From positions 1-64,000 of the IMG/VR virus record IMGVR_UViG_3300005098_000017: a stretch of 64,000 bases of DNA; one strand, 5' to 3'. Positions 48,149-59,756 of the stretch are shown here, one piece after another. A program made the translations under genes and the position numbers. The notes beneath the pieces are model-generated. The model saw only the letters and a list, made by a program, of their open reading frames with translations. It did no database searches and was not told the origin of the DNA. Numbering within the stretch: the stretch's first letter is position 1; each line of letters begins with the position of its first letter. This stretch comes from a virus.

Positions 48149-48201
48149 AAGCCCGCCATTAAATCGAAGCGCGCAACCCGGCGGGCTTAGGTCGCGCGCT
48201 T
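48149..48201 (-). promoter_or_regulatory. H-type pseudoknot PK1
   Basis: On the - strand: S1 AAGCGCGC (pairs GCGCGCTT), S2 AAGCCCGCC (pairs GGCGGGCTT), interleaved as S1-S2-S1'-S2' with a 9-nt A/T-rich third loop. It ends 26 nt before the start at 48123. Confidence 0.65.
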
Positions 48202-49345: not shown

Positions 49346-49404
49346 GGGCCTCATTACACCCCATGCAGAGCAGCAGGGCGAGGCCCTTAACCCTGAAGCT
49401 CTGC
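49346..49404 (-). promoter_or_regulatory. H-type pseudoknot PK2
   Basis: S1 GCAGAGCTTCAGGG pairs CCCTGCTGCTCTGC (with an internal mismatch) and S2 GGGCCTC pairs GAGGCCC, interleaved. The third loop is 12 nt. It ends 23 nt before the 49323 start. Confidence 0.6.
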
Positions 49405-49778: not shown

Positions 49779-49832
49779 GCCCGCCATTAGAACCAAGCCA
49801 GGTGAGGCCGGCGGGCTTAGCCCTACCCGGCT
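49779..49832 (-). promoter_or_regulatory. H-type pseudoknot PK3
   Basis: S1 AGCCGGGT/ACCTGGCT-type arm (one A-C mismatch) and S2 GCCCGCC/GGCGGGC, interleaved; ends 27 nt before the 49752 start. Confidence 0.5.
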
Positions 49833-49842
49833 TTTTTAATTT

Positions 49843-50245: not shown

Positions 50246-50303
50246 GCCTGCCACTTTTACCCACAGATAAGGCGAGGCCGGCAGGCTTTACCCCGCCTTA
50301 TCT
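50246..50303 (-). promoter_or_regulatory. H-type pseudoknot PK4
   Basis: S1 AGATAAGGCG/CGCCTTATCT (10 bp) and S2 GCCTGCC/GGCAGGC (7 bp), interleaved, third loop GTGGGTAAAAGT. Followed by the SD-sequestering hairpin of 49856-50221. Confidence 0.65.
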
Positions 50304-50327: not shown

Positions 50328-50504
50328 TCACGAGCCAACAAGCCGGCCAAACCCTCCGGCACTCTTGCGGCACCGCTCCTCGCAGGCCGCACACAGGGGA
50401 GGAGAGGCTTGGGGAGGCCTCTTAGACCCTCTATGAGGGAGCTCCAGCGCCACGTCAAGGCGGGCCTCCAGTGCTGGAGTAGCCCCCCGGTGCGGGGGCT
50501 TCAT
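50328..50504 (-). CDS. Possible 58-residue ORF overlapping RNA element E4
   Basis: AAAGGAGG lies 9 nt before the ATG, giving a 58-codon frame (MKPPHRGATP start, LCAACEERC near the end), and a GTCAAT box follows its stop like a real gene. But the frame is mostly element E4 and GC-rich fold-backs, and the other E copies are not open in the same frame. Coding is uncertain. Confidence 0.35.
   Translation of the reverse strand: MKPPHRGATPALEARLDVALELPHRGSKRPPQASPPLCAACEERCRKSAGGFGRLVGS
50413..50479 (-). ncRNA. HDV-topology RNA element E4
   Basis: On the - strand: P1 CTCCAGC, P2 GGAGGCC, P3 loop block CGCCTTGACGTGG, P1' GCTGGAG, CT, P4 CCCTC-ATA-GAGGG, TCTAAGA, P2' GGCCTCC. Preceded by an AGCCCCCG/CGGGGGGCT hairpin and GCTA. 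Lies between the polymerase-like gene and 49856-50221. Confidence 0.7.
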
Positions 50505-50577
50505 TTTTTTCACCTCCTTTCTAGCGGGATGAACTAGCCCGGCCATCTAGCCCATCCCGCGGTTTAAGGTTTAACCT

Positions 50578-52980
50578 TTAATCAAGTTTCCAGAAGTTGA
50601 GCCAGAATTCGCGATCGGCAGTAGCAAGAGGATGAAGACCAACAGGGGTTTTGATTCCAAGAATCCGCGCGAGCTGCCAGTTGCGCTTCTTACCAGTATG
50701 CAGTTCTACAAGAAAGCGTACATGTGCTTCAAGATCAGATTCAGTACCGGCAACAATAGCCAAGAAATCGCTCTCAGCGACAGTAAGAGATTTCCAAGTG
50801 GTAAGAATCGCCTGAGGTTCAAATCTAGCAAGAAGCCTGCGGAAACGCCTGTTTAGCCTCCGGAAGTTCCTAGTAAGAAGTACACGAAGTTCAGATACTT
50901 TACTCGCAAGGAAGCGCCGACGCCTGTCGAGCTCTCTGCGCCGCCTGCCAAGGGTAGCCAGAGCATCAGAAAGGTGATCAAGCCTAGGTAGCAGCCACTT
51001 TTCCATTTTTCGCCTCAGAACTTCGTTTCTGATCCCAGATGCTAGGAACCTGACTTTAGTTTCAGGTCTCGCATTAGCGAAGAGTCTACGGCTCCGATTA
51101 ACTACCGTATCAATCGCCGTTACTTTCTCTGCAAGAGCATTCACTTCATTCTCTATCTTCCGTATTCGAGAGAGCGTCCGTCCGAACATGCGCCTCCTTA
51201 TGCGATCCCACTTGAGGAACAATGCCTTAACTTCTGGATCAATGGTGCCATCAGGAATAAGATCCTTAAGAGACCTAACCTCTGGCTCAGCAAACTCAAC
51301 TTCAGGAATAAATTCAGCAAGAGGACCTGTTGGAGTTATTGCTACTGGATCCGCCTTCGCAGTCCTATTAGCGATCATTTGAGTAACAGTATCAAGCCTG
51401 GCAGTCGTACTCGCGAGTAGATGCAGTCCCGCTTCTACCTCATGACGAAGCTCCGGTTCTTTACCATTAGCAAGATTCACTGCAGCTTGGAGTAGCGCTC
51501 CAGTTCTCGCAACAAGATCCATATTAAGTTCAGTATCAGAAAGAAGCATTCGGGTAAAACCAGCATCAGCTCTCGCAATCATTTCCTTACCCAGCTCAAT
51601 ATTTTCCACTTCGGTACTAGGATCCATTCTCCACTCTCCGAAAGATATCTCCTTTATCCGGCTTCGTACGCTATCGAAGAATTCCTTAGCAACGAGAGGT
51701 TCCTTGAAGACCTTGGATGCCGCGGCGAGAGCCACTTTGTCGCCATCGGCATCCCATCCGCTAGGCATATCTGCAGGGTGTACCAGAATCGCATGCGCAC
51801 GATGGTCAACAATAATAGGAAGGATAAGAGTATCACCAGGCAAGATGGGCGACTTCTGTATGAGTAGGAGTTCTCCATCTTTCAGACCAAGCATCCGTGC
51901 AATCACAGGAGGAATAACAGCAGTGCCGGGATGTGCATTCTGAAATCCCAGATAGAAGCCCGGGCCTAGTCTCAACTTCCGAAGTGCAATCTTTAAGTGG
52001 TCCAGAAGCACTCTCCGCAGGAAGCCTGCCTCCTTTATGAGGCCGAATTTCCGCAGAATATCAGCAGTCAGAGTCAGCACTGCACTAGGTTCATTGATCG
52101 GATCAGCGTTTTTAACAAGGATATCAGCCGCTACCTCAGGATCAGAAAAACCATTAATAGCTTCAGCAATCTGCTCCTGAATCCGTTCAACAAACTCAGG
52201 CGCTGGATTAACATTCCATCCGAGTTTCCTTGGTAGAAGGAACCAGCGCGGCAGAGCTTGGCTGAGACTGATGCCGCCCGCGAATACGGCACCAACCTCA
52301 TGCAGCATGATGGTTCGCCCGAGTTCGAGTACGAAGCGCCGCCTCTTGATGAGTTTTGCGGTGTCAGCATCAGCAACGATATCAGTCCCTGTTTCCAGCT
52401 CCGTGAGGACCTCATCTGCAAGAGCTTCATTTCCAAGATACAACATCAGCCTCTGGAACCCAACTCTGCCGGGAAGAACTGGTACCGCTATCCCTTTCAG
52501 ACCAATAGCAGTCACTTTAAATCCATTCTTCACAAGAGCACGGGTAACCTTAGAAACCTCAGCCTCTGTAGGAGCATATGCTGCTGCCACAAGTTTTGTA
52601 AACCGTTCGCTAACGAAGAAGATCCCATCCACATTCATTTTCATATTGAGCTTGAGACCACGGATGCGAAGATCCATACCAGCCACACGTTCCGGCTTGA
52701 AATCCCAGCCTTTATTCGGAATTTCCGGCGTTGTCATCATCTGGATGCGCTTTCCAGGAAGAGATCTCAGATCAAATTCAGGATCACCGAGAATATTCGC
52801 AATCACTCTATTAACAGTCTCTATAGCAGAAGTAGGAACCACCTTGAAGATCCTACAATCTGGAATCATAGTAGGCTTCATTGGAAGATCAGAGTTCAGA
52901 TCAGGATCAAATGCGAAGAAGACACTAGCACCAGCTTCAGTAAATAACGCTTGCAGAGGAGACCTCGGTATTCTTTCCAT
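50578..52980 (-). CDS. RNA polymerase-like protein with DxDGD metal motif
   Basis: 800 residues; AAAGGAGG is 7 nt before the ATG at 52980 (an ATG at 52983 is also possible). Residues ~365-420 read GTAVIPPVIARMLGL, LIQKSPILPGD, LVHPADMPSGWDADGDKVALAA. This matches the double-psi beta-barrel of RNA polymerase beta' (RxPxLH, then NADFDGDxMAVH), with Asp410, 412 and 414 as metal ligands. GLKGIAVPVL (160-169) may be the partner Lys barrel (GNKGxxS in beta); this is weaker. A ~230-residue Arg/Lys-rich coiled-coil region ends the protein. Length and single chain recall YonO-like phage polymerases. Codons are more GC-rich than in neighbours. Confidence 0.65.
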   Translation of the reverse strand: MERIPRSPLQALFTEAGASVFFAFDPDLNSDLPMKPTMIPDCRIFKVVPTSAIETVNRVIANILGDPEFDLRSLPGKRIQMMTTPEIPNKGWDFKPERVAGMDLRIRGLKLNMKMNVDGIFFVSERFTKLVAAAYAPTEAEVSKVTRALVKNGFKVTAIGLKGIAVPVLPGRVGFQRLMLYLGNEALADEVLTELETGTDIVADADTAKLIKRRRFVLELGRTIMLHEVGAVFAGGISLSQALPRWFLLPRKLGWNVNPAPEFVERIQEQIAEAINGFSDPEVAADILVKNADPINEPSAVLTLTADILRKFGLIKEAGFLRRVLLDHLKIALRKLRLGPGFYLGFQNAHPGTAVIPPVIARMLGLKDGELLLIQKSPILPGDTLILPIIVDHRAHAILVHPADMPSGWDADGDKVALAAASKVFKEPLVAKEFFDSVRSRIKEISFGEWRMDPSTEVENIELGKEMIARADAGFTRMLLSDTELNMDLVARTGALLQAAVNLANGKEPELRHEVEAGLHLLASTTARLDTVTQMIANRTAKADPVAITPTGPLAEFIPEVEFAEPEVRSLKDLIPDGTIDPEVKALFLKWDRIRRRMFGRTLSRIRKIENEVNALAEKVTAIDTVVNRSRRLFANARPETKVRFLASGIRNEVLRRKMEKWLLPRLDHLSDALATLGRRRRELDRRRRFLASKVSELRVLLTRNFRRLNRRFRRLLARFEPQAILTTWKSLTVAESDFLAIVAGTESDLEAHVRFLVELHTGKKRNWQLARILGIKTPVGLHPLATADREFWLNFWKLD

Positions 52981-52997
52981 CATATCACCTCCTTTCC

Positions 52998-53124
52998 GCC
53001 GCGGATTTCGTTGCCCTCGGTGCGGCACTCCGAGGGTCGCCGGGCTTCGAGCGTCATTGGTGCCAAGGCTGGCCATAGAATGAAGCCCGGAAATTCTATG
53101 GCCATGGCCGGGCGCCTTGACACC
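52998..53124 (-). promoter_or_regulatory. Double pseudoknot leader PK5 of the polymerase-like gene
   Basis: PK5a (53040-53124): GGCCATAGAAT/ATTCTATGGCC interleaved with CCGGGCTTC/GAAGCCCGG, and an outer GGTGTCAAGGC/GCCTTGGCACC arm. PK5b (52998-53036): CCCTCGG/CCGAGGG interleaved with GCCGC/GCGGC, third loop CAACGAAATCC. It ends 18 nt before the start codon. Confidence 0.6.
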
Positions 53125-53627: not shown

Positions 53628-53699
53628 GAGGGACTCTTAGATCCCGCATAAGCGGGAAGCCCCGGCGCCACGACAAGGCGGTCCCTCAAAAAGCCGGGG
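53628..53699 (-). ncRNA. HDV-topology RNA element E5
   Basis: P1 CCCCGGC, J TTTTT, P2 GAGGGAC, CGCCTTGTCGTGG, P1' GCCGGGG, CT, P4 TCCCGC-TTAT-GCGGGA, TCTAAGA, P2' GTCCCTC. P1 begins on the base right after the TAA stop of 53700-54170. The A-to-T change in the P3 loop is the only deviation in that block. Confidence 0.7.
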
Positions 53700-54170
53700 T
53701 TAACTCAATTTGACATCATTATTATCCTTCTCTTTCTTTATCCACTCTATCAATTCATCCACTAGGCGCTCCACATTATAATCATCAATAATAAGAAGCG
53801 CCCTCCTGACCTTGTAGCCGAGCACCTCATGCGCTTTTAGCACATGCCTCGGCATCCAAGGCCAGGTCTCATTGTATCCCCCATTATATTTGATTTGGAG
53901 AAGGATTACCTCCTTCTTATGGGGGATACCAATGCTGACGTCGATTTTAAATACGACGTCAGCTTTACTCCCGACAGGATAGTCTATTAATTTCCATCCC
54001 GCCGGAAGCTTGGAGGATAGTTCTTCAATGAATCTATCCTCCGCTTCGAAGCCAGCTCTATGCGCCTCATGTGCGATAGAGCTAACCTCGAAATCCGGGC
54101 GGATTATTTCATGACATTCCGCCCAGAATTTTCGCGCTATAGTGCGGGCCTTCTCCATTTCATTTCTCAT
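53700..54170 (-). CDS. PD-(D/E)XK-like nuclease, possibly inactive
   Basis: 156 residues after TGGAGGAG. AGFEAEDRFIEEL, then GSKADVVFKIDV and ILLQIKYNG follow the PD-(D/E)XK core, but the Glu of ExK is Gln (QIK). An alternative carboxylate may substitute. Assignment is by pattern. Confidence 0.5.
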   Translation of the reverse strand: MRNEMEKARTIARKFWAECHEIIRPDFEVSSIAHEAHRAGFEAEDRFIEELSSKLPAGWKLIDYPVGSKADVVFKIDVSIGIPHKKEVILLQIKYNGGYNETWPWMPRHVLKAHEVLGYKVRRALLIIDDYNVERLVDELIEWIKKEKDNNDVKLS

Positions 54171-54237
54171 TTATTACTCCTCCATATGCATTCCGCCAAG
54201 GAAGTGACAAGTCCCCAAGGTCTTCTACCGTTGTCAT
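54160..54237 (-). CDS. Possible 25-residue coupled ORF
   Basis: ATG overlaps the stop of 54234-55070 (ATGA) and follows GGGAGGTG; its 3' end overlaps the start of 53700-54170. It may serve to couple translation. Confidence 0.45.
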   Translation of the reverse strand: MTTVEDLGDLSLPWRNAYGGVINEK

Positions 54238-55070
54238 AATATCACCTCCCTTACTTTGATAACAGGGTTAACCCAATCAACAAAATGATAGATTTTGTTT
54301 ATACGAGGGGGACAACCTTGGTCTCCCTTTATTTCGATATCATTATGATCAGCTATCCATACCTCATGAAACTGATTAAACAGTTTCTTAAATATAGGCG
54401 CCGCCTCCATCTCATATCCCGGCTTAACCTCTATATTATTCGCCAGAAGAACATTATCGTTACCGGTCACCGCTACCATAAGCGCACGAATCTTATTGTT
54501 TTCCACATCTTCCATCACATATGTGATGGCATCACCAAACGTCATGGTGTGCCATCCGTCATGGAAGATGTGTGCGCAGCAATGTACATGGAACCCTAAG
54601 AACGGAAATCTTGGATCTTTACGCGATAGTGGACGAAGTAACCAGCGTTCCGTTCTAATTACAGGTAAATCTGTTATGTCCACAGCCGGTAATGAGATCC
54701 ATTCCCGAAATAATTTCTGAATTTTACCACTATGAAGGTCTATTTTTGTATACCTTGGATGCCACCGCCAAAATTCTTTCCAAAATTCGCGGTGGCCATA
54801 TCGTCTAGCCCAAGATGTCACCAAGTTTTCCCTCGGTGACATCCTCTCATCGAGGCCTGTTTCATTAGCGGCCTCAATGAGATGGGGGCTTAGTGGCCCC
54901 CTAAACTTAAAGATATACCCTGCAAATTCTGGCCGCAAAAGTGGCGTTAGAAGCCACAAGGCATCGCGGCCGATTTTATTTAAATTATCACGGCCGTATG
55001 CCCTTATGGCTATCTCGATAAGAGGTTGCAATGTCTTATTCTTCATCAAGCCTTCCAAATATGCATTCAT
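54234..55070 (-). CDS. Hypothetical protein with His/Cys cluster
   Basis: 278 residues after AAAGGAGG. Helical, Arg-rich first half; a HVHCCAHIFHDGWH cluster near residue 165 may bind metal; beta-rich C-terminus. Not similar to any family I recognise. Long structured leader (PK6, hairpin, E1) upstream. Confidence 0.6.
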   Translation of the reverse strand: MNAYLEGLMKNKTLQPLIEIAIRAYGRDNLNKIGRDALWLLTPLLRPEFAGYIFKFRGPLSPHLIEAANETGLDERMSPRENLVTSWARRYGHREFWKEFWRWHPRYTKIDLHSGKIQKLFREWISLPAVDITDLPVIRTERWLLRPLSRKDPRFPFLGFHVHCCAHIFHDGWHTMTFGDAITYVMEDVENNKIRALMVAVTGNDNVLLANNIEVKPGYEMEAAPIFKKLFNQFHEVWIADHNDIEIKGDQGCPPRINKIYHFVDWVNPVIKVREVIL

Positions 55071-55108
55071 TTTTACCTCCTTTATTTTTATACATATTCT
55101 CCATTTTT

Positions 55109-55166
55109 GCCCGCATTAGTTTACCAAGGGCACCATCTGACCTGCGGGCATTGATCAGATGGCGCC
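55109..55166 (-). promoter_or_regulatory. H-type pseudoknot PK6
   Basis: S1 GGCGCCATCTGA/TCAGATGGTGCC (12 bp, one wobble) and S2 GCCCGCA/TGCGGGC (7 bp), interleaved; third loop CTTGGTAAACTAA. 39 nt before the 55070 start. Confidence 0.7.
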
Positions 55167-55178
55167 TATATACAAAAT

Positions 55179-55213
55179 GGGCACCGTATAGTCATGGTAA
55201 CAATACGGTGCCC
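55179..55213 (-). other. Perfect 11-bp hairpin
   Basis: GGGCACCGTAT/ATACGGTGCCC with a 13-nt loop, between E1 and PK6. Not followed by a T-run, so not an obvious terminator. Confidence 0.6.
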
Positions 55214-55234
55214 TCACAACATCCCCTTTTATTA

Positions 55235-55310
55235 GGGTGCTCTTAGACCCTTAGGGATTGGACCTAAGGGAGCCCCTCCACCACGTCAAGGTGGCACCCT
55301 ATCGGAGGGG
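55235..55310 (-). ncRNA. HDV-topology RNA element E1
   Basis: P1 CCCCTCC, P2 GGGTGC, CACCTTGACGTGG, P1' GGAGGGG, CT, P4 CCCTTAGG/CCTAAGGG, TCTAAGA, P2' GCACCC. Preceded by an AGCGGGGT/ACCCCGCT hairpin (55312-55332) ending GCT-A. Between 55364-55570 and 54234-55070. Confidence 0.75.
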
Positions 55311-55363
55311 TAGCGGGGTCTTGGACCCCGCTCTTGACTCTTGAGGCCGGCCGGTTTATTTTT

Positions 55364-55570
55364 TTAATATTTCCTGTAATCATGATACAAATGGATTATA
55401 CTTTCATACCTGCCAAATATTTTGACAGGCATAGCATGCAAATCTGTTACTTTCATGCCTTCATAGAAGAATTGACCTTCTCCAAAATACTTATGGAGAA
55501 GGTCTGTTTCCTTTATAGGATGATCTAGCAAGAACAAAACTCCTTCTTTTATAAACCCAATCACCGGCAT
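55364..55570 (-). CDS. Small hypothetical protein
   Basis: 68 residues from MPVIGFIKEG, 6 nt after GAGGAGG. Beta start, then EGQFFYEGMKVTDLHAMPVKIFGRY; no family recognised. Flanked by E1 downstream and PK7 upstream. Confidence 0.6.
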   Translation of the reverse strand: MPVIGFIKEGVLFLLDHPIKETDLLHKYFGEGQFFYEGMKVTDLHAMPVKIFGRYESIIHLYHDYRKY

Positions 55571-55583
55571 GATAAACCTCCTC

Positions 55584-55642
55584 GCCGCACCTTGGTTCAA
55601 CTCCCAGTATGCATACGGTGCGGCACTTATATGCATACTGGG
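55584..55642 (-). promoter_or_regulatory. H-type pseudoknot PK7
   Basis: S1 CCCAGTATGCATA/TATGCATACTGGG (13 bp) and S2 GCCGCACC/GGTGCGGC (8 bp), interleaved; third loop AGTTGAACCAA. It abuts GAGGAGG, 14 nt before the start. Confidence 0.75.
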
Positions 55643-55659
55643 ATACCGGCCGGCCTTAT

Positions 55660-55734
55660 GGACACTCTTAGACCCTTAGGGATTGGACCTAAGGGAGCCC
55701 TCCAGCCACGTCAAGGCGGTGTCCTTCTGGAGGG
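55660..55734 (-). ncRNA. HDV-topology RNA element E2
   Basis: P1 CCCTCCAG, P2 GGACAC, CGCCTTGACGTGG, P1' CTGGAGGG, CT, P4 CCCTTAGG/CCTAAGGG, TCTAAGA, P2' GTGTCC. Preceded by an AGCAAGG/CCTTGCT hairpin ending GCT-A. Confidence 0.75.
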
Positions 55735-55786
55735 TAGCAAGGCCATCATGTGAGACCTTGCTTTGGCTTGGGCGGCAAATCCTTCC

Positions 55787-55993
55787 TTAAAATTCGTAAT
55801 ACCAGACTTTTTTTCCAATTCTTTCAATATATTTGGCAAGTTTCCTTACTTTTCTAGTAGGTCTACCACCTGTGTAAGCCATACCTGATACCAAAGGCCT
55901 AAGAAGACTGACTCTGCCATCTGGAAATAATTCCCCAACAAACCTGATCAAATCCTTGCCTATCCAGAGATCAACTATAACTGTCCTTGTCAT
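55787..55993 (-). CDS. Small basic hypothetical protein
   Basis: 68 residues after AAAGGAGG. Beta start (TRTVIVDLWIG), basic C-terminus (RPTRKVRKLAKYIERIGKK). Leader contains PK8. Confidence 0.6.
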   Translation of the reverse strand: MTRTVIVDLWIGKDLIRFVGELFPDGRVSLLRPLVSGMAYTGGRPTRKVRKLAKYIERIGKKVWYYEF

Positions 55994-56007
55994 TTTTTCC
56001 TCCTTTC

Positions 56008-56066
56008 GCCGCGGTCAGTTTTAACCACCAGTGGGCCCACACCGCGGCATTTATGGTACCCACTGG
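56008..56066 (-). promoter_or_regulatory. H-type pseudoknot PK8
   Basis: S1 CCAGTGGG/CCCACTGG and S2 GCCGCGGT/ACCGCGGC, interleaved; third loop about TGGTTAAAACTG. 15 nt before the start codon. Confidence 0.7.
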
Positions 56067-56084
56067 CTTGCCGCCCAAGCCATC

Positions 56085-56154
56085 GGACGCTCTTAGACCT
56101 AGCCACAAGGCTAGGAGCCCCTCCACCACGTCAAGGTGGCGTCCGTCGGAGGGG
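56085..56154 (-). ncRNA. HDV-topology RNA element E3
   Basis: P1 CCCCTCC, P2 GGACGC, CACCTTGACGTGG, P1' GGAGGGG, CT, P4 CCTAGCC-TTGT-GGCTAGG, TCTAAGA, P2' GCGTCC. Preceded by a GCAAGGCC/GGTCTTGC hairpin ending GCT-A. Confidence 0.75.
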
Positions 56155-56207
56155 TAGCAAGACCCCAAGGGGCCTTGCCTCGTCTACGGGGGCGCCAATA
56201 GACCGTA

Positions 56208-56492
56208 TCAATAAACATCAACTAAGCACTTGATATACGGCCTGATTAAATACACATAATCTCCAATCCTCTTTATATTGTGGCTCGAAACAAGTTGCGA
56301 TTTAACACATACTTTCGCATGACTCGGAACTCTTATAACGTACCCAAAGTATAATCTTTGGCCAAGGAGGATCAAATCCTCCTTGTCCAAAACGATGACC
56401 CTGTGTGTGTAACCTTCATAGCGATCATCAGGGTATATTACTGCTGCAAATTCTTGCTCATGTATTCTCACATCTTCAATCCACACTATCAT
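56208..56492 (-). CDS. Hypothetical beta-rich protein
   Basis: 94 residues after AAAAGGAGG. Beta-rich with CVKSQLVSSHNIKRIGDYVYL; no family recognised. Leader contains PK9. Confidence 0.6.
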   Translation of the reverse strand: MIVWIEDVRIHEQEFAAVIYPDDRYEGYTHRVIVLDKEDLILLGQRLYFGYVIRVPSHAKVCVKSQLVSSHNIKRIGDYVYLIRPYIKCLVDVY

Positions 56493-56508
56493 TTTATCCT
56501 CCTTTTTC

Positions 56509-56568
56509 GCCGCGCCTTGGTTCTACGCCCAGCATGTACGCGGCGCGGCATTTACGCACATGCTGGGC
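56509..56568 (-). promoter_or_regulatory. H-type pseudoknot PK9
   Basis: S1 GCCCAGCATGT/ACATGCTGGGC (11 bp) and S2 GCCGCGCC/GGCGCGGC (8 bp), interleaved; third loop GTAGAACCAA. 17 nt before the start codon. Confidence 0.75.
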
Positions 56569-56662
56569 TGGCGCCCCCGCAATCCCCTATTAGCCGAGGA
56601 AGCAAATCAAAAATCAAGGGGGCAGGGGGGTCGAAATACAATCCGACCCCCTCAAAATCCAC
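56552..56662 (-). CDS. Possible 36-residue ORF
   Basis: GTG 7 nt after AGGAGGT opens 36 codons running into PK9; its 5' part is a GGGGGTCG/CGACCCCC hairpin. Could be a leader peptide or chance. The rest of the 56493-56810 gap holds PK9 and the + strand promoter below. Confidence 0.3.
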   Translation of the reverse strand: MDFEGVGLYFDPPAPLIFDLLPRLIGDCGGASPACA

Positions 56663-56743
56663 AATAGAGACCTCCTGAATTTTTTGCCGGTTTTTTGACC
56701 CTTATAGGCCTACGATTGACTCCATCAAATGGGGAATTACCTC

Positions 56744-58136: not shown

Positions 58137-58528
58137 TTTATCTCCTTATTATTTTTATCGTTGAAATATGTTTTTCTAAATTCCTCTAGGATAGGTTCAT
58201 CACCTGTACCATAGAGGACGGCGTGCATCCATTCAGTTACCTGATCTGCTGTATGGTGTGGAAATACATCCTTCATGCATCCGAAGTATTTTTGCCAGTT
58301 GGTTGGTTTAGGTTTTTTATGTTCTTTTATAGTCCATTTTTTGGTAGCTGTGGCGGATCCGTAGGTTGTGAGGATGAGGCCTATAATTATTATTATTATG
58401 GTGTATGTAGTGGGATTATTGGTGTAGTGGTGGAGGAGGAAGCCGGCCGCAGTGGTAAGTAGGCCCCAGAATCGTTTGCTCCTCCAGAAGGGTTTGGTGT
58501 TATTATTGTTATTATCGTGTGTGTTCAT
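58133..58528 (-). CDS. Holin-like two-helix membrane protein
   Basis: 131 residues after AAAGGAG. An Asn-rich start, then KPFWRSKRFWGLLTTAAGFLL and an Ile-rich second helix (to ~65), then a soluble domain. The KPFWxSKxFWG lead is typical of small phage membrane proteins next to lysis genes, but no lysin is adjacent. Its ATG lies inside the last codons of tnpB. Confidence 0.55.
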   Translation of the reverse strand: MNTHDNNNNNTKPFWRSKRFWGLLTTAAGFLLHHYTNNPTTYTIIIIIIGLILTTYGSATATKKWTIKEHKKPKPTNWQKYFGCMKDVFPHHTADQVTEWMHAVLYGTGDEPILEEFRKTYFNDKNNKEIK

Positions 58529-59756
58529 TTTGGGTCTCCTTTATGTTATGAAGCCCGCGCTTCAGTATATTAATACTTGCATTATAATCTCTATCGAGGG
58601 TTGCACCACAGAACGGGCATTTATGTATACGATCGTGGAGTGCCTTAGGTACCTTATGTCCACATGAGGAGCATGTCTGCGTAGTATATGCTGGGTTAAC
58701 CTTGATGACTTGTGAGCCGTGAAGCCGCGCCTTGTAGGATGTTAGATTGATAAGTGTGTTCCATCCTGCGTCGTAGATGTATTTAGAGAGGTGAAGCCGG
58801 CGGCGCTTGCTTACAAGATCATGTATTTTTATATCCTCGAATATAATAACATCATAGTTAGTAGCGAGCTGATGTGAGATATGATGGAGGAAGCCGCGCC
58901 GCATGTTAGCTAATCGTTCATGAAGTCTGGCTAGTTTACGCCTCTGTTTCATATAATTAGCACTCCCTCGCTGCTTGCGCGAGAGCTGTTTTTGTACACG
59001 CTTTATACGTTTTTCGAGTTTGGAGATGAAGCGCGGGTTAGATACAATATTACCATCACTTGATACGATGAGATTCGTAAGCCCGAGATCTATACCGATG
59101 ACGCGCTGCTTACTATTAATATCGGTAACGATAGTAGTGTCATTATTATTGGGTACTTCAACTGTTACATATGCATACCATCTACCACTGGGATGTCTCT
59201 TTATAGTAACATTTTTGGCTTTAGTCCATTCGATAGGTCGGTGAAGGCGGATTTTTAAGCCGCCGAGTTTGGGTAAATGAATATATGCGAACTTATCATT
59301 CAGTTTCTCAAATTTAATGACAGGATACCCATCCGGATAGTTTTTATGAGTCATCCAAACTTGTGGATATGTAAGTGATAAGTATTGATCAGGGTTTTTG
59401 GGTTTAGGCGGACTTATATGTCCTTCTTTATTCCTGATGGCTACAAAGAAACGCTTATATGCCCAGTCAATCTTATCAATTATAGCCTTTAAGACACCTG
59501 AATAAACGAGCCTTAAGGCAGGTTCCTCTCTTTTAAATGCGGTTAGGTTACGTTGCCTCTCAAATTTTGTAGGGGTTCTATGTTCTTCATCCCATATACG
59601 TCTGTATTCATTTATTTCGTAATTATAGAACCAGCAGAGGATGGACAGCCAGTTTTCTAGTTTATATTCCTGTAGTGTTGTTGGATAGGCTCTGAATTTG
59701 TAGGTGAGGTAGGAAGCCGCCGCCTTATCAGTATTTTTTGATCCTTGTTTATTCAT
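58512..59756 (-). CDS. tnpB: TnpB-family RNA-guided nuclease (IS200/IS605 type)
   Basis: 414 residues. RuvC residues: Asp223 (GIDLGLTNL), Glu307 (IIFEDIKI), Asp388/390 (DRDYNASINIL). Zinc finger: Cys362, 365, 380, 383. All catalytic positions are intact. No TnpA and no clear element ends are visible, so it is a lone TnpB. TnpB guides derive from the 3' end of the gene and flanking DNA, so a guide RNA would overlap the 58133-58528 start region. No ribosome site is seen at the ATG. Confidence 0.9.
   Translation of the reverse strand: MNKQGSKNTDKAAASYLTYKFRAYPTTLQEYKLENWLSILCWFYNYEINEYRRIWDEEHRTPTKFERQRNLTAFKREEPALRLVYSGVLKAIIDKIDWAYKRFFVAIRNKEGHISPPKPKNPDQYLSLTYPQVWMTHKNYPDGYPVIKFEKLNDKFAYIHLPKLGGLKIRLHRPIEWTKAKNVTIKRHPSGRWYAYVTVEVPNNNDTTIVTDINSKQRVIGIDLGLTNLIVSSDGNIVSNPRFISKLEKRIKRVQKQLSRKQRGSANYMKQRRKLARLHERLANMRRGFLHHISHQLATNYDVIIFEDIKIHDLVSKRRRLHLSKYIYDAGWNTLINLTSYKARLHGSQVIKVNPAYTTQTCSSCGHKVPKALHDRIHKCPFCGATLDRDYNASINILKRGLHNIKETQNEHTR

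Follow-up and report, generated by a model that had tools for sequence, protein, structure and literature searches.

Self-cleaving HDV-class ribozyme candidates between the protein genes of an uncultured bacteriophage, with gene-specific closing arms and pseudoknot leaders

An RNA element repeated at the gene boundaries of a large uncultured phage, here called E, quite likely belongs to the HDV class of self-cleaving ribozymes. C-G as the cleavage-site pair and one additional C would make it a variant type, which would cut the phage transcript between genes. Judged from sequence, one long transcript probably yields single-gene messages in this way, with no need of a protein enzyme.

The window analysed here covers the first 64 kb of an uncultured virus record of 147,433 bases. 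Phage-type genes in the record include DNA polymerase B and ribonucleotide reductase, and the proteins of this phage have distant relatives or none. Between 48 and 57 kb the genes have the minus-strand orientation, and the G+C content of this segment is about 44-50%, as against 35-42% in most of the remaining window. A TnpB/Cas12f-like RNA-guided nuclease gene of the IS605 type (58512-59756, minus strand) adjoins this segment. A tRNA search within the 64-kb window found none. At 56.1, 55.7 and 55.2 kb on the minus strand a stop codon is followed by about 20-30 bases, a hairpin, a single A, E, an H-type pseudoknot, AGGAGG and ATG. An earlier note on this DNA had described such a common order at three boundaries, and all of its parts were found on the minus strand where the note had placed them. 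Two further E copies, E4 and E5, lie outside the region that it covered. The genes, the hairpins and the copies of E are as follows.

56208..56492, minus strand: gene A, 94 aa, no match in the family search
55787..55993, minus strand: gene B, 68 aa, no match in the family search
55364..55570, minus strand: gene C, 68 aa, counted from the ATG after AGGAGG
54234..55070, minus strand: gene D, 278 aa, no match in the family search
56156..56179, minus strand: hairpin, ends 1 nt before P1 of E1
55736..55762, minus strand: hairpin, ends 1 nt before P1 of E2
55312..55332, minus strand: hairpin, ends 1 nt before P1 of E3, z -5.1
50481..50500, minus strand: hairpin, ends 1 nt before P1 of E5
56084..56155, minus strand: E1, HDV-topology element, predicted cut between A56155 and C56154, core identical in the relative G001 (L005)
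55660..55735, minus strand: E2, HDV-topology element, predicted cut after A55735
55234..55311, minus strand: E3, HDV-topology element, predicted cut after A55311, identical in G001
53628..53700, minus strand: E4, HDV-topology element without an upstream hairpin and without a pseudoknot
50413..50480, minus strand: E5, HDV-topology element, preceded by an AGGAGG-ATG-AAG remnant and a hairpin

All five copies have the orientation of the genes and flank single genes, as clustered phage ribozymes do. The gap between hairpin and P1 is exactly one A in four of the five; the exception is E4 at 53.7 kb, which has no hairpin and whose first base is also the final A of a UAA stop codon, that of a 156-aa gene. 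The same spacing of one A holds for every hairpin-bearing copy in the three phages in which E was found. The hairpins at the three boundaries were rejected as terminators, since they are without a U-tract and no intrinsic terminator is predicted there. Around E5 (50328-50600, minus strand) a hairpin, AGGAGG and ATG-AAG run directly into hairpin, A and E5, and this unit looks like one whose gene was deleted.

The fold of E rests on an alignment of nine distinct sequences from three phages. These are the window phage, its relative G001 (175,796 bases, four E copies) and G002 (39,376 bases, about 61% G+C, two E copies), in which the core is kept and the helix sequences are unrelated; both G001 and G002 come from metagenome 3300014911. 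The nine copies form a nested double pseudoknot in the order P1-P2-P3-P1'-P4-P2', which is that of the HDV class. All 14 pairs of P1 and P2 are Watson-Crick in 9/9 sequences, with at least two pair types at five of the seven positions of P1 and at all seven of P2. When the 3' strands were permuted among copies, the observed pairing was reached once in 10000 trials for P1 and never in 10000 for P2. P4, a plain hairpin of 5-8 bp in all copies, covaries too. P3 consists of three pairs, RCC/GGY, in which the R-Y pair covaries throughout the nine (A-U in three, G-C in six). This covariation overturned another assignment, with P3 as CRC/GUG and a six-base L3, which hides the HDV signature. The nested minimum-energy fold of some copies differs from this HDV-type set of helices.

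The unpaired positions also correspond to an HDV-class core. P3' abuts P1' with no nucleotide between them, as in the class. L3 reads UUGNCGU in all nine copies and so includes U20 and G25, an HDV-class signature (PMC3386971). J1.1/4 is CU in 9/9, and J4/2 is [U/C]CNAAGA in 9/9, where N is U or C, thus giving the C followed by N-A-A that marks the class; the J4/2 C is its catalytic position (PMC10879173, PMC9901934). A G22-C38 pair of P1.1 is possible in every copy, with U21 facing U39, a pattern that covariation cannot judge because all four bases are invariant. If formed, it would resemble the two-pair T1/P1.1 of CPEB3, which has a U-U pair and in which G:C and C:G are tolerated (PMC9901934). 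Conservation outside the helices is concentrated at U20, G25, the C-N-A-A of J4/2 and the A at position -1, a base to which the fold gives no structural role. The cleavage-site pair departs from the HDV consensus of R-Y or G.U, being C-G in 9/9, and one extra C stands between P2 and P3 in 9/9. In CPEB3, a G1A change nearly abolishes activity (PMC8233481). A minor alternative for E moves the cut upstream by one base, to an A+.C wobble, but this register makes P1 8 bp, longer than usual. We place E among the HDV-class ribozymes, as a variant type that is presumably active.

How often would such an element be met by chance? A structure-only descriptor, encoding HDV topology and no sequence, gave six matches in 50-57 kb, namely the five E copies and a chance-like one inside a gene. 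Its background was 0.02 matches per dinucleotide shuffle. Rfam gave no HDV or other convincing match to E, either at the gathering score or at E<=10, and blastn of E3 against a phage collection gave no match. Relaxed pattern scans of viral contigs (IMG/VR) found true copies only in G001 and G002 besides the window phage; the remaining matches were discarded because they lack P1/P2/P4. One of the candidates, L046, has P1 and P4 with inconsistent P2/P3 and was treated as chance. A pattern scan of genomes had no true copy among the matches listed. E is known from three phage contigs only, and no fewer than two of these derive from a single metagenome.

Among the nearest counterparts are HDV variants from fungi, reported in 2017, whose hallmarks include C-G as the cleavage-site pair and a C inserted between P2 and P3 (PMC5640933). 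Compared by description, E shares both in 9/9 copies, together with the nested double pseudoknot. Two of the fungal variants were shown to self-cleave at the base of P1, and mass spectrometry gave evidence for 2',3'-cyclic-phosphate and 5'-OH ends (PMC5640933). The fungal variants carry a loop-E motif in P4 (PMC5640933), whereas P4 of E is a plain hairpin, and E, unlike them, occurs in phages and is repeated at gene boundaries. Phages do have HDV-like ribozymes, the theta ribozymes, which are minimal, have a cleavage site described as G1 and lie mostly at tRNA 3' ends, for the processing of which they have been proposed (PMC10879173). E resembles them as an HDV-class element of tailed phages whose predicted cut comes where a folded RNA upstream ends. 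However, a theta ribozyme would be expected to have its cleavage site no more than 5 nt from the 3' end of a tRNA, and E, in a window that has no tRNA, lies between protein genes.

A further regularity concerns the two ends of each message. In cistrons A, B and C the stretch just 5' of the pseudoknot is complementary to the stretch just after the stop codon, in the following arms.

56569..56579, minus strand: 5' arm of cistron A, end-to-end complementarity
56187..56197, minus strand: 3' arm of cistron A, 11 bp
56068..56082, minus strand: 5' arm of cistron B, between E1 and the pseudoknot
55764..55778, minus strand: 3' arm of cistron B, 15 bp
55645..55656, minus strand: 5' arm of cistron C, between E2 and the pseudoknot
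55344..55355, minus strand: 3' arm of cistron C, 12 bp

Complementarity within a cistron extends over 11, 15 and 12 bp (A, B and C), compared with 3-7 for mismatched pairs of cistrons, and was matched by 2, 0 and 0 of 2000 shuffles, respectively. The hairpin, the A and E sit in the linker between neighbouring arm-closed units. After E1 and E2 the closing arm and pseudoknot of the next cistron adjoin E almost without a spacer. From the placement of the arms, cleavage would free single-gene mRNAs with closed ends. This gene-specific complementarity is absent from the earlier note, as are the two outlying E copies and the occurrence of the pseudoknot independently of E.

The steps of the proposed mechanism are these. 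The cut by E would fall one nucleotide past the hairpin, with the single A on one side and the first C of P1 on the other. This would leave the upstream mRNA ending in the hairpin, the A and a 2',3'-cyclic phosphate, while the message downstream would start with the folded ribozyme and a 5'-OH. Pairing of leader with trailer over 11-15 bp would close each message of cistrons A, B and C on itself, and the cut in the hairpin-A-E linker would separate neighbouring closed units. The pseudoknot before the ribosome site would act as a leader for stability or translation control, and would do so for genes without E as well.

Nine such leaders are found in the row.

56509..56568, minus strand: pseudoknot leader of gene A, H-type
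56008..56067, minus strand: pseudoknot leader of gene B, H-type
55584..55643, minus strand: pseudoknot leader of gene C, H-type
55109..55166, minus strand: pseudoknot leader of gene D, H-type, after an extra hairpin
52998..53036, minus strand: pseudoknot leader of an 801-aa gene, small H-type, weaker score, no E nearby
50246..50303, minus strand: pseudoknot leader of a 121-aa gene, H-type, downstream of E5
49779..49833, minus strand: pseudoknot leader of a 110-aa gene, H-type, without E
49346..49404, minus strand: pseudoknot leader of a 140-aa gene, H-type, without E
48151..48201, minus strand: pseudoknot leader of a 79-aa gene, H-type, without E

These H-type pseudoknots, all before ribosome sites at 48-56.5 kb, have an S1 of 7-14 bp, an S2 of 5-8 bp and A-containing loops. 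UAA-type sequences stand at the ends of the loops, and the usual start of S2 is GCC. The eight strongest score 40-62, and no gene leader elsewhere in the genome exceeds 38 in the same scan. At a score of at least 45 there are six leaders in the 147-kb genome, all within 48-56.5 kb, and none in the shuffled sets. In phage T4 the mRNA leader of gene 32 is likewise an H-type pseudoknot, and its protein ligand is known. That case concerns a single gene, whereas here nine leaders of unrelated genes have a common fold. It is possible that they form a regulon or leader family of their own. For five of the nine the gene boundary lacks an E (at 48.1, 49.3, 49.75 and 53.0 kb and before the row's first gene), and E4 (53.7 kb) and the G002 copies have no pseudoknot; the two parts are therefore separable.

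Comparison with G001 bears on the movement of these units. When 55.0-56.7 kb of the window is set against 71.9-73.3 kb of G001, the modules align at 76-99%, and the gene bodies between them have no blastn match. The arms still pair in G001 around different genes, over 14 bp including G.U for A and over 14 Watson-Crick pairs for B. Conserved modules around unrelated small genes suggest the exchange of gene cassettes at the modules. The ribozyme copies may exchange parts too. Compared with E4, its counterpart in G001 (L005 9036-9113) keeps P1-P3 and has P4 swapped for one like that of E2 and E3, a difference that would reflect helix exchange between copies. In the leader region upstream of the row's first gene (56600-56700, minus strand) there is a hairpin, GGGGGTCG...CGACCCCC, that is 99% kept in G001. 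It is possibly an attenuator or a promoter-proximal element. Downstream of the second E of G002 comes a terminator-like hairpin, and no gene is adjacent. The structure directly after it (L018 8286-8410, plus strand) is very stable (z -5.0), ends in a long hairpin and UUUUGUUUU, and is a probable terminator.

What if E acts for the upstream message only? It might form the 3' end of that mRNA at the hairpin and A, much as theta ribozymes act at tRNA 3' trailers, with the downstream order incidental. The constant spacing of one A between hairpin and P1 would fit, as would the pseudoknots that occur without E. So would the second E of G002, where the useful product would be an upstream mRNA 3' end, given the terminator-like hairpin and the lack of an adjacent gene. 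However, E1 and E2 adjoin the next closing arm and pseudoknot almost directly, and the arms persist in G001 around other genes. As an account of everything that E does, 3'-end formation seems to us rather unlikely; as a function, upstream 3'-end formation is at least as likely as protection of the downstream 5' end. That protection had been assigned by the earlier note to the pseudoknot, as a cap placed behind a cleaving element that splits the transcript. The proposed splitting finds good support in the covariation, the HDV-class core and the cistron layout. The capping is weakened by the separability of the two parts, although E, pseudoknot and ribosome site do follow one another in that order at the three boundaries and close to E5. 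Moreover, an HDV-class ribozyme stays on its downstream product, so that E and not the pseudoknot would be the new 5' structure. A cleaving E with a pseudoknot whose function is capping is likewise doubtful.

Two further readings depart more from that of a ribozyme. E could be a non-cleaving double pseudoknot that shares only the HDV topology and serves as a protein-binding site, an exonuclease block or a structural spacer. The unusual cleavage-site pair and the failure to match Rfam are in its favour, and counting against the ribozyme reading itself is E4, where a cut directly after the stop codon would leave the upstream message without a 3' UTR. Nevertheless, the unpaired conservation falls on HDV active-site positions and on a structurally idle -1 A, and active variants from fungi have both odd features too (PMC5640933). 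We hold a non-cleaving E to be improbable. Less probable still is that the repeats mark cassette boundaries at the level of DNA, as recombination homology or inverted repeats, with RNA folding secondary. The genes between conserved modules do differ between the window phage and G001, and the arms are indeed inverted repeats around single genes. Homology in DNA would, however, preserve sequence and not pairing, so the helices that vary while their pairing stays speak against it, as does the G002 core with its unrelated helices.

The preferred reading thus remains that of an HDV-class ribozyme between genes. The earlier note called the processing system undescribed, which goes too far. A 2011 report already describes clustered hammerheads in prophages, in one orientation and flanking single genes, which were seen to cleave both in vitro and in E. 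coli and for which a role in single-gene mRNA processing was proposed (PMC3088659). The processing idea itself is therefore not new. The E array resembles that arrangement in having several ribozymes of the same orientation around single genes. The prophage elements belong to another ribozyme class, and the part of the report at hand notes no end-to-end complementarity or pseudoknot leaders (PMC3088659). In the literature searched, outside of which most subscription journals fall, no description was found of this ribozyme variant in this phage context and module architecture. What appears to differ from the earlier cases, as far as sequence can tell, is the type of ribozyme, its action between protein genes, the closing arms and the common leaders.

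Perhaps this phage builds portable single-gene RNA units, each with a 5' ribozyme, closing arms specific to its gene, a leader with a pseudoknot and a hairpin at the 3' end, that cleave themselves from a common transcript and are exchanged as cassettes. We put this forward tentatively, with a little less than even confidence. If it holds, the message's own end-to-end pairing would keep it closed, and this would be a route made of RNA alone to defined, protected monocistronic mRNAs. The phage would then have an HDV-class ribozyme system dedicated to the processing of protein-coding transcripts, and a variant type reported from fungi would be brought into bacteriophages. The parts are short, are repeated in one operon and can be synthesized, which makes the system directly testable. 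With its closing arms and common leaders, it would open the purpose of small ribozymes in phages, a long-standing question, to direct test.
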